In this document: positions 4,247 through 32,109 of the stretch, one piece after another
Layout: the number at the start of each line of letters is the position of its first letter
Numbering within the stretch: position 1 is the first letter of the stretch
Virus record (IMG/VR): IMGVR_UViG_3300034106_005167
Coordinates: 1-32,966 of that record
Direction: 5' to 3' (one strand)
DNA: 32,966 bases
Source: a virus
Program-made: the position numbers and the translations under genes
The notes under the pieces: generated by a model
Database searches by the model: none
What the model saw: only the letters and a program-made list of their open reading frames with translations
Told to the model about the DNA's origin: nothing

Positions 4247-5461
4247 TTATAGTTCTGCGTTAAACGCAAGGGATGAGTTACTGTTATTCATCATCCAATA
4301 ATTTCTAAATACTGTAAATCCAGATCCATTAACATTAACAGAGCCCAGGCTTGATGAAGCATCTCCCAAAATTAAAGATGTTGCAGTTGATACGTTTGCC
4401 CCATCAGAAACTCTTGGATTTGTATACTCAATAGATGTTGGCTTAACACGCATTATTTGAGGGAAAGGAAATGTAACAATTACTTGAGTAGTAGCATTAG
4501 CCATTCCCAATGGTGAATATAAAAATGATGAAGAAGATCCATCGGATGGACCTATTTTATAATAATATCTTTGGCATGCAGCGAGCTCTCCCTGAATAGT
4601 TCCTGTTGCTGTGCTAAATGGGGTTGCTACTGATCCTTCTTCTAATTGAATCCCCCAAATATCAATTGTTTGAGCAATATTAAATGTCGGAGCTAAAATC
4701 ATTTGCAAAGTATGATCAGATGAAGATATTGTTTTGCCAGCTAAAGACGGAATAAAAAATGTTGAGGAATATCTTTGCCATGATGTAGTTAATGTTATTG
4801 GTGCTGGATTTATTCCTTCTGCGGAAGAAGGGCTTCCTGTTCCATAAAATCTATATGCTATAGGGGCAATAGTTCTTCCAGTTGTGTCTGCTTTTGCCCA
4901 AAATGAGAAAGTTACAGTTTTTCCAGCCAACGTTCTAACATCTTCAATTGGCTGAATTAATATATTTTGATATGTTGCTCCAGAACCAGCCACAGATTGC
5001 TGAAATCTCATATAGTATTGAGATTCATATCCAGGAATTTCTCCTGGAGTAAATGCTTGTCTACTCCAAATTCTTGTGCCCTTTGTTCCGTCACCATTTT
5101 GTCTCCAGCGATCTGCTGTAAATACATTATCTGATGGGCTTGTAAAAGAAGATCCACGTTGCCAAACTGAAAAATCTCCATTGATTATTTTATTTTTTCC
5201 TGCAACAACTTGTGGAGCATATGGCTGCCAAGCTAATCCTGTTGAAGTTGTGGAGTCTGCAACTAATACTGTTCCGTCCGCTCCTTTTGCTAAACGGGCA
5301 GGAACGTTATCGGCGGTGGCGGTAATAAGATCTCCCTTAGCATCTACCAATGTATTTGGTATATCGCTATGAGTATGTGCTCCTACTCCGACGGGAACCC
5401 AAGTATCTGTCTCTGTATCATATACATAAGCTGGTCTTGGTGTATTTCCTAATGTTGGCAT
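4247..5461 (-). CDS. Fibre/adhesin-like protein, unique N-terminus plus CBM-like module (unit 3, X gene)
   Basis: 404 residues. The N-terminus (MPTLGNTPRPAYVYDTETD) differs from its neighbours and runs into a linker (AKGDLITATADNVPARLAKG) common in phage fibres. At about residue 87 the shared adhesin module begins: AGKNKIINGDFSVWQRGSSF, then ADRW and 'VTFSFWAKAD' strands. A WGIQLEEGSVATPF motif lies near residue 265, followed by the QGELAACQRYYYK signature and the C-terminus FNAEL. The jelly-roll-like pattern suggests a carbohydrate-binding (galactose-binding-like) fold; this is inferred from motif spacing. An SD is fused to the stop of the previous gene (TATAAGGAG). It is the fourth large gene of the third C-B-A-X unit. 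Confidence 0.82.
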   Translation of the reverse strand: MPTLGNTPRPAYVYDTETDTWVPVGVGAHTHSDIPNTLVDAKGDLITATADNVPARLAKGADGTVLVADSTTSTGLAWQPYAPQVVAGKNKIINGDFSVWQRGSSFTSPSDNVFTADRWRQNGDGTKGTRIWSRQAFTPGEIPGYESQYYMRFQQSVAGSGATYQNILIQPIEDVRTLAGKTVTFSFWAKADTTGRTIAPIAYRFYGTGSPSSAEGINPAPITLTTSWQRYSSTFFIPSLAGKTISSSDHTLQMILAPTFNIAQTIDIWGIQLEEGSVATPFSTATGTIQGELAACQRYYYKIGPSDGSSSSFLYSPLGMANATTQVIVTFPFPQIMRVKPTSIEYTNPRVSDGANVSTATSLILGDASSSLGSVNVNGSGFTVFRNYWMMNNSNSSLAFNAEL

Positions 5462-27464: not shown

Positions 27465-29382
27465 CAAGCTCGCAATTTCCATCTGAGCTACAGGCTAAAG
27501 TAGCATTTGTAGAAGTTCCATCTTCTGTCTCATAAAAAGATAAATCTTCCCAACGAATATTGCTTGGCATCTTTGCAACAAGAGCATCATATTCTTCTTT
27601 GCTTACTTCTTGATAAGGAGCCTGCTTATATGTGTGATCTGAGTGTGGAAGGAATGAAATACCAGAGACTTCATCAAAATGCTTGTATACCCAAGCTCCG
27701 ACTTCCATCCACTCATCTTCTTTTACAGATACTGTAATTGATGGCTTATGTTCACACCATGCACGTTGATAAACTAACCAAATATTAAGATGTTCAATAG
27801 CAGTTAAATCATTTCTTACAATAGCACCGTCTGGTGCTTTTACTGGAAATGAAAATACGTATGTGTCTGCTGGCTTCATGACATCATCTTCTACTGGAAT
27901 TCCAACTTCCTTCAAAAATGTAGAGATTGGATCTCCCTTTGAACCACGAACTGTACGAATGTAATATGGTGAATGCCATGCATGCATTCCTGAAGATACC
28001 CCGACCAATTGAGACACTGTTCCAGAAGGTTTAACGCAAGTAATTGCGGCAGACTCAGGAATCCCAATTTTCCCAGCCTCTTCTTTATTTGTTGCTCTTG
28101 CTGATTCTCTAAGACTCATTAAAAATGCTTCTAGAGATACAAGGTCATCCTTGCCTGACATAAACTTATGCCCAAATTGTCCAGTTAAAGAAACTCCCAA
28201 TAGTCGTTCCTCTTCTGTGTTGTCTTTCCAAATCTTACGAAGATATTTAAAATCAGTTAGAGTTGCTTGCCATGTTCCAAGAATAGTTGCTAGTTCGACT
28301 TTTCTTTCAATATCCTTTTTTGTATCCTTTTCACGTAATACGACTTCTGAAAGATTACAAAACTGATAAGGACGTAAAATGATTTCTGAACATGGGTTCG
28401 TTCCATAATGTACTTCAGGGTCTCTGCGACCATACTTAGCTGCTTGCTTCTGCGCTGCTGCGACATTATAGATTCCACGTTCACCAGACTTTGAGTCATA
28501 AAGTGATTTCCACTCTGCAATAAATTGCTCCATCTCTGGTTTGCGTGAATACGCAACAGAGTTATTTGAAAGTGCACGTTGTGTATTATTCTCCCACCAG
28601 TTACCAGATTTTGCTGATGCCATTTCAATATCGTTAATGTTTGAAAGAGAAATCATAGCAGATCTGCGAACTCCACCTACAACAACTACTTCGCCAATCT
28701 TACACATAATATCATGTGCTTCGATAGGCTTTAGCTGACGACCAGCTGCATTTTTAAACTTTGCAATAGTAAAATCAAAAAGATTAATCAATGGCTGTGG
28801 ACCAGATGAGCGACCACCCATTGTCTTGAGTCTTGCGCCTGCGGGACGAACCTTTGAAACATCAACTGCAGGAATTTGTCCTGACCAAAGTAGAGCTAAT
28901 AGCTCACGGTATGCTTTTGCCCAGCCTTGCTTGGAATCTTCTACTGTAATAATTGTTGTTGACTTCTCAAATGATTCTGGAACGGCAGGAAGCTTGTTGA
29001 CATACTTGTATTCAACAGAAAACCCTACTCCAGTTCCGCACATAAGAATATACATTGTCTCATCAAATGAACGTGGTGAATCTACTGGGACAAATGAACA
29101 GTTATATCCAGCCACATTATCACGCTCTAATGCTGCACCTGCTGTCATCACAGAACGCATTGATGGCATTACATTTCGATTAAACACTGCGTCCTTTAAC
29201 TCTTTAAGAAGTTTATCGGACGGCTTATAGTTATGATTTTTATCTAGGTGCAATAGCATAAAGTCAAAATACCTATCAACAGTTTCACCCCAAGTTTCTC
29301 TACGGTTATCTTCAGAGATCCATCTTGCATATCGTGACAATGCAATAAAGTTTTCATATGGGTTTTCAATAGTTCTTGACAT
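27448..29382 (-). CDS. nrdJ: Adenosylcobalamin-dependent (class II) ribonucleoside-triphosphate reductase
   Basis: 644 residues, the monomeric class II type related to Lactobacillus RTPR (739 aa). It reduces ribonucleotides to deoxyribonucleotides using coenzyme B12, without oxygen or a separate small subunit. Visible active-site features are Cys95 (AGYNCSFV), and the NPCSEIILRPYQFC block with the thiyl Cys331, Glu333 and Cys342, the same 11-residue spacing as C408/C419 of the reference enzyme. Further features are CVKPSGTVSQLVG, and a C-terminal Cys631/Cys637 pair (ACSSDGNC) for re-reduction. It is shorter mainly between the first cysteine region and the GGVRRSA motif. An AAGGTG SD lies 10 nt upstream. 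It would supply dNTPs for phage replication, using host or environmental cobalamin. Confidence 0.97.
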   Translation of the reverse strand: MSRTIENPYENFIALSRYARWISEDNRRETWGETVDRYFDFMLLHLDKNHNYKPSDKLLKELKDAVFNRNVMPSMRSVMTAGAALERDNVAGYNCSFVPVDSPRSFDETMYILMCGTGVGFSVEYKYVNKLPAVPESFEKSTTIITVEDSKQGWAKAYRELLALLWSGQIPAVDVSKVRPAGARLKTMGGRSSGPQPLINLFDFTIAKFKNAAGRQLKPIEAHDIMCKIGEVVVVGGVRRSAMISLSNINDIEMASAKSGNWWENNTQRALSNNSVAYSRKPEMEQFIAEWKSLYDSKSGERGIYNVAAAQKQAAKYGRRDPEVHYGTNPCSEIILRPYQFCNLSEVVLREKDTKKDIERKVELATILGTWQATLTDFKYLRKIWKDNTEEERLLGVSLTGQFGHKFMSGKDDLVSLEAFLMSLRESARATNKEEAGKIGIPESAAITCVKPSGTVSQLVGVSSGMHAWHSPYYIRTVRGSKGDPISTFLKEVGIPVEDDVMKPADTYVFSFPVKAPDGAIVRNDLTAIEHLNIWLVYQRAWCEHKPSITVSVKEDEWMEVGAWVYKHFDEVSGISFLPHSDHTYKQAPYQEVSKEEYDALVAKMPSNIRWEDLSFYETEDGTSTNATLACSSDGNCELVDISA

Positions 29383-29474
29383 TTTTTAGTGACACCTTTT
29401 CTTCCGCCTTACGGATTAATTTAAAATTTGAATGAGATCTAAGTGTACCAAAAAATCTTTAGCGGGGGAAGGGG
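29383..29474 (-). other. Gap between glycosyltransferase and reductase
   Basis: A 92-nt A+T-rich gap. It contains a C-run (CCCCTTCCCCCGC) just after the glycosyltransferase stop, a GATTTTTTGG stretch, and the AAGGTG SD of the reductase. I see no convincing promoter, terminator or cobalamin-riboswitch core. Confidence 0.4.
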
Positions 29475-30523: not shown

Positions 30524-30556
30524 TATAGTTCGTTATCTCTAAAGGAGGAAATGCCA

Positions 30557-31108
30557 ATGGAGAATATAAAACAACAGTTAAGCGATGTTGTGCATAATAT
30601 GGTTACGATAGTAATGATAACATTATTTTTGTTTCCTGTACAGCCAGCAAATGCTTTAACAGTAAAACCTTTAGTGAAAACTGAAGCCCAATTAAAGCAA
30701 GAAGTCTTAGATAGTTTTAGTAAAGAGATTTACAAGCCATCTGAGATGCTTACAGACAAAGAGCTAAAACTATTGCTTGAGACTGTAGGATTCGAAGGAT
30801 TAGGCCTTAAAAAAGCCTGGTCAATAGCAAAGCGTGAATCTAACGGAAGACCGCTTGCATATAACGGGAATAAGCAAACTGGAGACAGTTCGTATGGAAT
30901 TTTTCAAATTAACATGATCGGGAATCTCGGTCCTGCAAGACTAGAAAAATTCAATCTAAAGAGTAACAAAGAGTTATTCGACCCAGTAACAAACGCAGAG
31001 ATAACGTACTACATGACTAATGGCGGTAAAAATTGGTCAGCCTGGAAAGGTTTAACCCCAAGGGCAAAGGAATGGCTTTTGCAATTCCCCACTGACACAG
31101 CGAAGTAG
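30557..31108 (+). CDS. Secreted lysozyme/transglycosylase-like muralytic enzyme (probable endolysin)
   Basis: 183 residues from the ATG at 30557, which has AAAGGAGG with an 8-nt spacing. The in-frame ATG at 30551 is only 2 nt from the SD. Residues 15-33 form a signal peptide (MVTIVMITLFLF ... ANA). A charged linker follows, then a lysozyme-like fold: AWSIAKRESNGRPLAYN with Glu94 as probable catalytic acid, GDSSYGIFQINM, and DPVTNAEITYYMTNGGKNW then SAWKG. It is expected to cleave the glycan strand of peptidoglycan. The signal peptide means the enzyme could be exported by Sec rather than wait for holin pores. It heads a plus-strand operon with three tiny ORFs. A virion-associated role is less likely. 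Confidence 0.85.
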   Translation: MENIKQQLSDVVHNMVTIVMITLFLFPVQPANALTVKPLVKTEAQLKQEVLDSFSKEIYKPSEMLTDKELKLLLETVGFEGLGLKKAWSIAKRESNGRPLAYNGNKQTGDSSYGIFQINMIGNLGPARLEKFNLKSNKELFDPVTNAEITYYMTNGGKNWSAWKGLTPRAKEWLLQFPTDTAK

Positions 31109-31329: not shown

Positions 31330-31478
31330 ACACAAATTGCAAAAACGGTAGCTGCTCATGCGAACAGGAAAATAACTTTTTCCACGTAAAAATTTTGCGG
31401 GATGGGCAGCCAATGATTGAAACAGACGCCATGGGGCGGGAAAAATTTTGGGAAGACCTAGGAAGAGAAAATGACTGA
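31326..31478 (+). CDS. Tiny cysteine-cluster protein (50 aa)
   Basis: ATGA overlap with the previous gene and an 8-nt overlap with the next one. The N-terminus TNCKNGSCSCEQ carries three cysteines (C-x4-C-x-C), followed by FFHVKILRDGQPMIETDAMG and a charged end. Tight overlaps on both sides argue for a real gene although it is short. Function unknown; a metal-binding site is possible. Confidence 0.62.
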   Translation: MNTNCKNGSCSCEQENNFFHVKILRDGQPMIETDAMGREKFWEDLGREND

Positions 31479-31680
31479 AGAAAACTTTGAGCCAGTACCA
31501 CTAGATCAAAATTTACCTATGGTAAATTATATTATGCTACACAGGATTTATGACCTATTGACGCTAATTGCGACAAAGATGGTCGGACCAGAAGATGTGT
31601 CTAAAATGGTTTCATACCATGACCAAGGATTCCTTCTGGGGCCTCAGCCATCATATACCCCATCGCCAGAAGAAGAATAA
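31471..31680 (+). CDS. Small acidic protein (69 aa), function unknown
   Basis: Starts MTEENFEPVPLDQNLPM with AGGAAGAG upstream. A helical, partly hydrophobic centre (NYIMLHRIYDLLTLIATKMV) is followed by a flexible Pro/Glu-rich tail. The centre is amphipathic rather than a clear membrane helix. It is the last ORF of the lysis operon, ending just before a new promoter. It could be a lysis accessory, but nothing in the sequence shows this. Confidence 0.7.
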   Translation: MTEENFEPVPLDQNLPMVNYIMLHRIYDLLTLIATKMVGPEDVSKMVSYHDQGFLLGPQPSYTPSPEEE

Positions 31681-31686
31681 AAGTTC

Positions 31687-31715
31687 TTGACTTTGAATGA
31701 TAGTTATCTTACAAT
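31687..31715 (+). promoter_or_regulatory. Near-consensus promoter of a candidate small RNA
   Basis: TTGACT (31687-31692), exactly 17 nt, then TACAAT (31710-31715): five of six matches in each hexamer. The predicted start is about 31722. No ORF with an SD follows before the terminator at 31777-31814. Confidence 0.65.
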
Positions 31716-31721
31716 TAAGTA

Positions 31722-31814
31722 GTACGGGTTGAGCATTTATGTTCCTCGTATAATGTATCTTAGGATACTAGAAAAGCCCATTCGGATCCGCCTCTGAATG
31801 GGATTTTTTCTTTT
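31722..31814 (+). ncRNA. Candidate phage small RNA (about 93 nt, three hairpins)
   Basis: Between a strong promoter and a strong terminator lies an uncoded stretch that folds on paper into three successive hairpins. (1) TACGGG, a 2-base bulge and GAGCA pair with TGTTC and CTCGTA around a TTTA loop (31723-31750), 11 pairs. (2) GTATC/GATAC (31755-31768). (3) The terminator stem. The size and architecture are those of a trans-acting small RNA. Alternatively it could be a leader for the 91-residue gene, but the terminator ends before that gene's own -10 box. A TATAAT at 31749-31754 may be a second start. Confidence 0.5.
31777..31814 (+). terminator. Intrinsic terminator after the lysis operon/small RNA
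   Basis: CCCATTCGGA (31777-31786) pairs with TCTGAATGGG (31793-31802), ten pairs including one G-T, with a 6-base loop, followed by TTTTTTCTTTT. A textbook Rho-independent terminator. Confidence 0.9.
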
Positions 31815-31821
31815 ATCGGTG

Positions 31822-31827
31822 TATAAT
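31822..31827 (+). promoter_or_regulatory. -10 box of a leaderless gene
   Basis: A perfect TATAAT 6 nt before the ATG at 31834 puts the predicted transcription start exactly on the A of ATG. No SD is present. No -35 is visible because the preceding bases are the terminator. Confidence 0.6.
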
Positions 31828-31833
31828 TAAACC

Positions 31834-32109
31834 ATGATAAAAACTAAATTAGTTACAGCAAATGCAACTCCAGTAGAGCTAAGCTTTGCCAGTCCAGTTA
31901 AAGGACATTATAAAATAATAATCACAAACACCAGCGCAAACAAACACGTACTAATTGGAGGAAGTGATCTTTCTTTAACTAATTATGGATTACGAGCCGA
32001 ACATGACGCCCCTCCAGTTATTATAGAAAACGTTCCTTTTCAAGATAGCATATACGCAATATCAGAAGACGGCTCAAATATTACTGTAGCCGTAATGGTA
32101 ATTGAATAA
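31834..32109 (+). CDS. Small beta-rich protein (91 aa), structural-like
   Basis: Starts MIKTKLVTANATPVEL. The pattern KIIITNTSANKHVLIGGSDL, NYGLRAEHDAPPVIIENV and DSIYAISEDGSNITVAVMVI is a compact beta sandwich. The 'vYvGGs.vt..nG..l......i.......lYAis..G...v.vl' motif is often seen in small phage virion proteins. It may decorate the capsid or tail, but it stands alone on the plus strand away from the structural cluster. It is probably translated from a leaderless mRNA and lies next to a non-coding interval. Confidence 0.72.
   Translation: MIKTKLVTANATPVELSFASPVKGHYKIIITNTSANKHVLIGGSDLSLTNYGLRAEHDAPPVIIENVPFQDSIYAISEDGSNITVAVMVIE

Follow-up and report, generated by a model that had tools for sequence, protein, structure and literature searches.

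A conserved three-hairpin RNA behind the lysis operon of aquatic phages, a candidate trans-acting regulator of phage replication genes

A predicted transcription unit behind the lysis operon

Does the short intergenic stretch that follows the lysis operon of this phage encode an RNA of its own and, if so, what would such an RNA act on? We analyzed the locus in the window, that is, the whole stretch of DNA under study (32,966 nucleotides), a 33-kb fragment of a tailed phage. The genes for a lysin, a 71-aa protein and a 69-aa protein are followed there by a sigma-70-like promoter starting at 31687, about 93 nt of sequence and a strong intrinsic terminator. The features of the locus are as follows.

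30551-31108, + strand: lysin with an SLT_3 (lysozyme-like) domain, first gene of the upstream operon
31471-31680, + strand: 69-aa gene (phrog_12271, function unknown), directly upstream of the small RNA and its constant neighbour
31687-31715, + strand: predicted promoter of the small RNA, TTGACT-N17-TACAAT; hexamers and spacing recur in relatives
31722-31814, + strand: predicted small RNA of about 93 nt (fold z score -4.8, covariance model match of 105.6 bits, covariation)
31804-31814, + strand: T run of the terminator, read from the sequence
31834-32109, + strand: 91-aa gene downstream, a variable neighbour found in 17 of 117 relatives, outside the small-RNA unit

An initial annotation of the window had pointed out this promoter, at 31687-31715, and the intrinsic terminator, which corresponds to a stem of 9-10 pairs (hairpin 3, below) followed by the T run. 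With a 5′ end predicted 6-7 nt past the -10 box and a 3′ end in the T run, 31687-31814 would form a separate transcription unit directly behind the lysis operon. The promoter is the sole intergenic site in the window that fits TTGAC[AT]-N16-18-TA[CT]A[AC]T, a pattern with just 5-9 intergenic sites per large related genome, and 102 of 110 distinct relatives fit TTGAC-N17. No terminator-like site was found in the window between the lysis operon and the promoter, so that read-through from the operon is also possible. The following gene has its own TATAAT past the terminator, as the initial annotation had stated; this box, at 31822-31827, is separated from the ATG by only 6 nt, suggesting that the mRNA of the 91-aa gene is probably leaderless.

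Covariation of the three hairpins

The sequence from 31722 to 31814 folds at -33.5 kcal/mol (z = -4.8), a value that none of 200 shuffles equaled, into three hairpins.

31722-31751, + strand: hairpin 1, with outer stem 31722-31728/31745-31751 and inner stem 31731-31735/31740-31744
31755-31768, + strand: hairpin 2, with stem 31755-31759/31764-31768 of 5 pairs and the tetraloop UUAG
31777-31802, + strand: hairpin 3, the intrinsic terminator stem of 9-10 pairs; two-sided changes in 8 of 9 pairs
31786-31793, + strand: loop octamer AUCCGCCU of hairpin 3, the proposed pairing site; invariant in 63 of 63

The initial annotation had already described the 5-pair hairpin and the terminator stem; its 11-pair first hairpin is replaced here by 7 + 5 pairs separated by a 2-nt bulge, UU at 31729-31730. 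Using a covariance model built from seven close sequences, we aligned 67 members of the family, in which 98.4% of the cells are standard pairs and 18 of 26 pairs show two-sided changes, including 6 of the 7 outer and all 5 inner pairs of hairpin 1 and all 5 pairs of hairpin 2, whose tetraloop is GNRA or UUCG in many relatives. Cells with two-sided changes number 234, against 58 in shuffles, and pairing falls to 29-51% when the partners are slid. Since many of these 67 members had been selected on hairpin 3, the count was redone on a set of 63, overlapping the first, that had been selected on the lysin, hairpin 1 or the polymerase: 99.2% of the cells are paired and 23 of 26 pairs carry two-sided changes, hairpin 3 being among them with 8 of its 9 pairs, a figure taken from this set because it was selected independently of the loop. 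Both counts come from alignments fitted to the structure, which biases them in favour of pairing, and the slid controls come nowhere near them.

At the level of sequence comparison, this covariation is proof that the small RNA is a structured family. The covariance search that the initial annotation had proposed gave the opposite of what was to speak against its reading, namely stems without conservation in relatives; its candidate small RNA now appears well founded, with three stems kept by compensatory changes and a promoter that recurs.

Distribution of the family and its neighbours

A search with the lysin retrieved 80 related phage contigs, 63 of which contain the element (64 including the window's own), while the downstream gene has a DNA-level match in only 8 of them. 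Further members were collected with the exact hairpin 3 pattern, with a hairpin 1 pattern and by a covariance-model search of contigs selected on the polymerase, giving 148 distinct placements in all and more than 100 distinct sequences in related viruses; opposite-strand matches of the model were dropped as mirror matches of the same hairpins. The ten large contigs (81-116 kb) have a single copy each, and in G009 the small RNA is seen at both redundant ends, as part of a terminal repeat. Among the 126 placements with sufficient upstream DNA, the 69-aa gene precedes the RNA in 125 and the lysin in 117. The protein encoded downstream in the window occurs in only 17 of 117 relatives, and 35 of the 148 placements have opposite-strand tRNA genes at most 1.5 kb downstream. 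A variable downstream gene behind a constant upstream one argues that the small RNA is not a cis leader, in agreement with the initial annotation, which had held that it is not simply the leader of the next gene; a cis leader or riboswitch calls for a constant downstream gene, and 17 of 117 is far from constancy.

In the 17 lysin loci that lack the RNA, the sequence stops no more than 1.7 kb from the lysin; as the known distances are 0.6-1.9 kb, we do not conclude loss; likewise, incomplete polymerase contigs (18-81 kb) without the RNA were taken as fragments and not counted as losses. No Rfam 15 family reaches its gathering threshold in the window, and at relaxed thresholds the best matches for the small-RNA stretch are at chance level: judged by these searches, the family is absent from Rfam 15. 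Phage records contained no DNA similar to this region and no full match to the hairpin. Among 84,980 bacterial and archaeal species, the exact hairpin 3 pattern matched once, in a Mycolicibacterium coding region, a hit that we judged to be due to chance.

Absence of a conserved ORF

That the stretch has no plausible ORF, as first noted from the window, also holds across the family, where no ORF is conserved. In the window, ATG TAT ... CTC TGA does form a frame of 14 codons through the hairpin 3 loop (CGG ATC CGC CTC), and start and stop are in frame in 29 of 106 relatives. The frame is thereby missing in most of them, the stop is changed to CGA in L001, and within the loop each base is fixed, third codon positions included, so that all codon positions are constrained alike. 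A tiny protein encoded through the loop is refuted for most of the family, and we rejected this reading as having next to no probability.

An invariant loop on a variable stem

The loop of hairpin 3 is the sole invariant unpaired part of the small RNA. Since the first pattern search had selected on the loop, its constancy was re-tested on sets selected on the lysin, hairpin 1 and the polymerase. AUCCGCCU is identical in all 63 rows of the alignment not selected on the loop, and GATCCGCC is kept in 66 of the 67 members selected on hairpin 1, the last one (L268) having AATCCGCC, in which the closing pair G-C has become A-U. In the most divergent members, the stems of hairpin 3 are unrelated and the loop is retained. 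Two of these, L422 and L424, have the stem GUAA(A/G)CCCCUGG/CCAGGGG(U/C)UUAC and have lost the U run, their extended hairpin 3 being followed by the TATAAT of the next unit. Terminators do not need a fixed loop sequence. The fixed loop thus points to a second job, and its retention in L422 and L424 after loss of the U run suggests that it is kept for more than termination. As the loop never varies, joint change of loop and target is not something that this family can display.

Complementary sites at translation starts of phage genes

In three of six large genomes searched for the loop complement, AGGCGGAU, it occupies the Shine-Dalgarno position of the gene for DNA polymerase III alpha, GGGCGGAU being counted in one. 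Further candidates emerged when ortholog groups were ranked by duplex energy, namely ribonucleotide reductase, a 121-aa gene (the MGDRANFGF protein, phrog_31860), a gene of 89-141 aa and the DnaB helicase. In a wider set of distinct polymerase leaders, GGCGG occupies the Shine-Dalgarno position in 52 of 59 and GGAGG in 2, one exception being G012, which carries the small RNA and yet has GGAGG. Polymerase leaders with unrelated upstream DNA, a tRNA gene in L368 and a terminator-like hairpin in L362, keep GGCGGA. The 121-aa gene has GGCGGA in 46 of 49 leaders; DnaB is less strict, with GGCGG in 29 of 51. Coding may help to retain the site in the main polymerase context, in DnaB and in the 121-aa gene, because it overlaps there with the 3′ end of the preceding reading frame.

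Ribonucleotide reductase had seemed the best target, with the loop complement matched in 7 of 7 leaders of the first sample. The site in the window is:

29403-29409, - strand: AGGCGGA in the leader of the class II ribonucleotide reductase (ATG at 29382), loop-complementary, an ambiguous target

In a small hairpin formed in cis, this AGGCGGA doubles as the 3′ arm, and the wider sample showed that the hairpin covaries, upon which we demoted the reductase to an ambiguous target. Its stem, CCGC-nnn-GCGG, stays paired despite sequence change in L113, L278, L326 and L101, and the small RNAs of L113 and L101 have a normal loop although the reductase site has changed. The reductase site may thus be a cis element.

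As for the hairpin itself, CCGC-3 nt-GCGG is conserved directly ahead of the Shine-Dalgarno sequence (window 29382-29425, - strand; 116 distinct leaders in related loci). A few phages show compensatory changes in it, and Streptomyces phage Yaboi carries a different one; the hairpin is possibly a separate cis element.

Complementarity compared with chance

We asked how far the matches exceed chance. Counted across 955 genes, position N of AGG[N]GGA holds A in 24, C in 15, T in 5 and G in 3. A merely weak site would have C, T and G alike, while pairing with the loop G, to which U binds by wobble, predicts C followed by T. Among 840 permutations of the octamer ranked by mean duplex energy, the real one comes 1st for the polymerase, 5th for the 121-aa gene and 6th for DnaB, ranks that are not independent, as the leading genes had been picked partly by duplex score in the same six genomes. 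A fairer test covers 102 ortholog groups. For 7 of them, about 1 being expected, the real octamer falls within the top 1%, and 13 of the 840 permutations, itself included, reach this number. Ten permutations including the real octamer are equal in the number of strong groups (mean of -11 kcal/mol or better), all of them sharing the core CCGCC. By this measure of sequence, complementarity appears to exceed chance clearly but moderately, at about 1 in 65.

The RNA thus has what is expected of the trans-acting class: a promoter and an intrinsic terminator of its own, as read from sequence; a conserved structure with a conserved unpaired pairing region; and complementarity to unlinked translation starts beyond chance, to a degree that is moderate given the composition of ribosome-binding sites.

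Phages without the RNA, and the likely host

The nearest isolated relatives that we found are the Stanwilliamsviridae (Streptomyces phage Yaboi). Yaboi shows the same order of lysin, glycosyltransferase and ribonucleotide reductase, but lacks both the small RNA (best match E 0.25) and the GGCGGA site, its polymerase leader having AAGAAAGGTAACC before the ATG. Eight further records with this polymerase have neither the small RNA nor the site, and in all nine phages with the polymerase and without the RNA (best matches E 0.25 and 0.42) there is no GGCGG at that position. In evolutionary terms this contrast is one comparison, and the joint absence of RNA and site outside the family may go back to one ancestral event.

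A WhiB protein is encoded in each of the six large genomes tested; among 14 control genomes, this family had a match in Corynebacterium only. The reductase is most similar to that of Streptomyces phages. Together, these sequence similarities suggest that the host of these aquatic phages is likely actinobacterial.

A proposed function and its alternatives

Structure, promoter, loop, single copy, position and complementary sites are all conserved. With moderate confidence, we propose a trans-acting role for this phage-encoded small RNA: it would pair with ribosome-binding sites of the phage's own replication genes and limit their translation. The sigma-70-type promoter behind the lysis genes would yield a 93-nt RNA of three hairpins, ending at its own terminator, in which the hairpin 3 loop exposes AUCCGCCU. 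This octamer would pair with GGCGGA(U) at the Shine-Dalgarno position of phage genes, the chief targets being DNA polymerase III alpha, the 121-aa MGDRANFGF protein, the DnaB helicase and one further small gene, perhaps with the ribonucleotide reductase leader as well. Masking of a Shine-Dalgarno site usually represses, and pairing in the cell would hence be expected to lower translation rather than to activate it, such that replication proteins would be cut back as the separately transcribed RNA accumulates once its promoter is active. The position at the end of the lysis operon suggests action late in infection. A more specific and tentative version, which we hold possible only, is that a virulent lineage uses this lysis-linked RNA with one fixed loop to silence a replication-gene regulon jointly, GGAGG having been swapped for GGCGGA and the end of replication being tied to the lysis stage.

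A trans-acting RNA could also have a host RNA as its key target, a GGCGGA message or another, with the matches in phage leaders being secondary or accidental. Known phage small RNAs do act on the host, as lambda PreS does on dnaN (PMC12197685), and the invariance of the loop would fit with a conserved partner in the host; we nevertheless regard this as unlikely, since the phage sites are conserved in specific genes despite unrelated upstream DNA and are missing in relatives that lack the small RNA. The loop might alternatively be read by a protein, of phage or host, that recognizes it together with the bulged hairpin 1, the RNA serving as a sponge or scaffold. GGCGGA in the leaders would then be either a variant of the ribosome-binding site or a distinct site for a protein, and its complementarity to the loop coincidental. 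The hairpin 1 bulge and the hairpin 2 tetraloops are well kept and needless for pairing alone, and the reductase leader hairpin shows that cis elements with a GGCGGA-type sequence exist. This explanation strikes us as quite improbable, because a plain weak ribosome-binding site leaves the preference for C over G and T unexplained, as it does the rank of the octamer among the 840 permutations.

The RNA could, lastly, be nothing but the 3′-terminal part of the lysis operon message, which it would shield as a stable and conserved terminator region without acting in trans. That it follows the operon in 125 of 126 placements, with no terminator-like site in between, agrees with such a role; a conserved promoter, two additional covarying hairpins, an invariant loop that terminators do not need and the L422/L424 hairpins, which keep the loop without a U run, do not, and we give this possibility very little credence.

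Relation to known small RNAs

The phage small RNAs studied so far are mostly those of temperate enterobacterial phages and have one antisense target or act on host genes. If the pairing proposed here holds, the RNA would represent a family that is widespread among large, uncultured phages of aquatic habitats and whose predicted targets are the phage's own genes; it would explain the odd ribosome-binding site of these genes and offer a clear test, one loop against one site, in a gene as central as that of the replicative DNA polymerase. The present work also supplies an annotation model for an RNA named in no current database.

The nearest working precedent in actinobacteria is the mycobacterial B11/6C RNA, of about 93 nt, whose C-rich loops serve for pairing, whose reported targets include dnaB and whose overexpression stops growth (PMC8628891). 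Length and hairpin structure are common to both, as would be loop pairing and a dnaB-type target, which are proposed for the phage RNA; 6C RNA, however, is encoded by bacteria and has two loops of six C, whereas the phage RNA has three hairpins and one fixed loop, AUCCGCCU. The longest C run of the small RNA in the window is CCC, within a stem, and the 6C model is not among its Rfam matches up to E 10; the two are different families. Like PreS of lambda, a phage small RNA acting on the host replication gene dnaN (PMC12197685), the RNA described here would target a DNA replication gene, but PreS is set apart by its description, being Hfq-dependent and directed at the host, while the targets proposed here are phage genes. 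Control of the phage's own genes is known for Sar of P22, which blocks translation initiation of ant (PMC12197685), and for OOP of lambda; unlike these antisense RNAs, each with one opposite-strand target, the present RNA would reach several unlinked genes via one loop.

Further observations on leaders and junctions

Several features of these genomes were seen in passing. In G005 and G010, a tandem pair of GGCGGA lies directly before the start codon of a 123-141-aa gene (ortholog group 122). Across related loci, a TATAAT is often found about 6 nt from the ATG of downstream genes, as at 31822-31834 in the window, which suggests leaderless messages. L042 has two additional copies of the terminator end with the following promoter, at 4482 and 5258 behind neighbouring genes and with the remainder of the RNA absent, as if the terminator-promoter junction had been reused upon gene insertion. 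Finally, ACGAAAGGA / CGAAAGG is strongly enriched before start codons (955 genes, six genomes and the window): CGAAAGG precedes 34 genes against 1 expected, and is apparently a second common form of ribosome-binding site.
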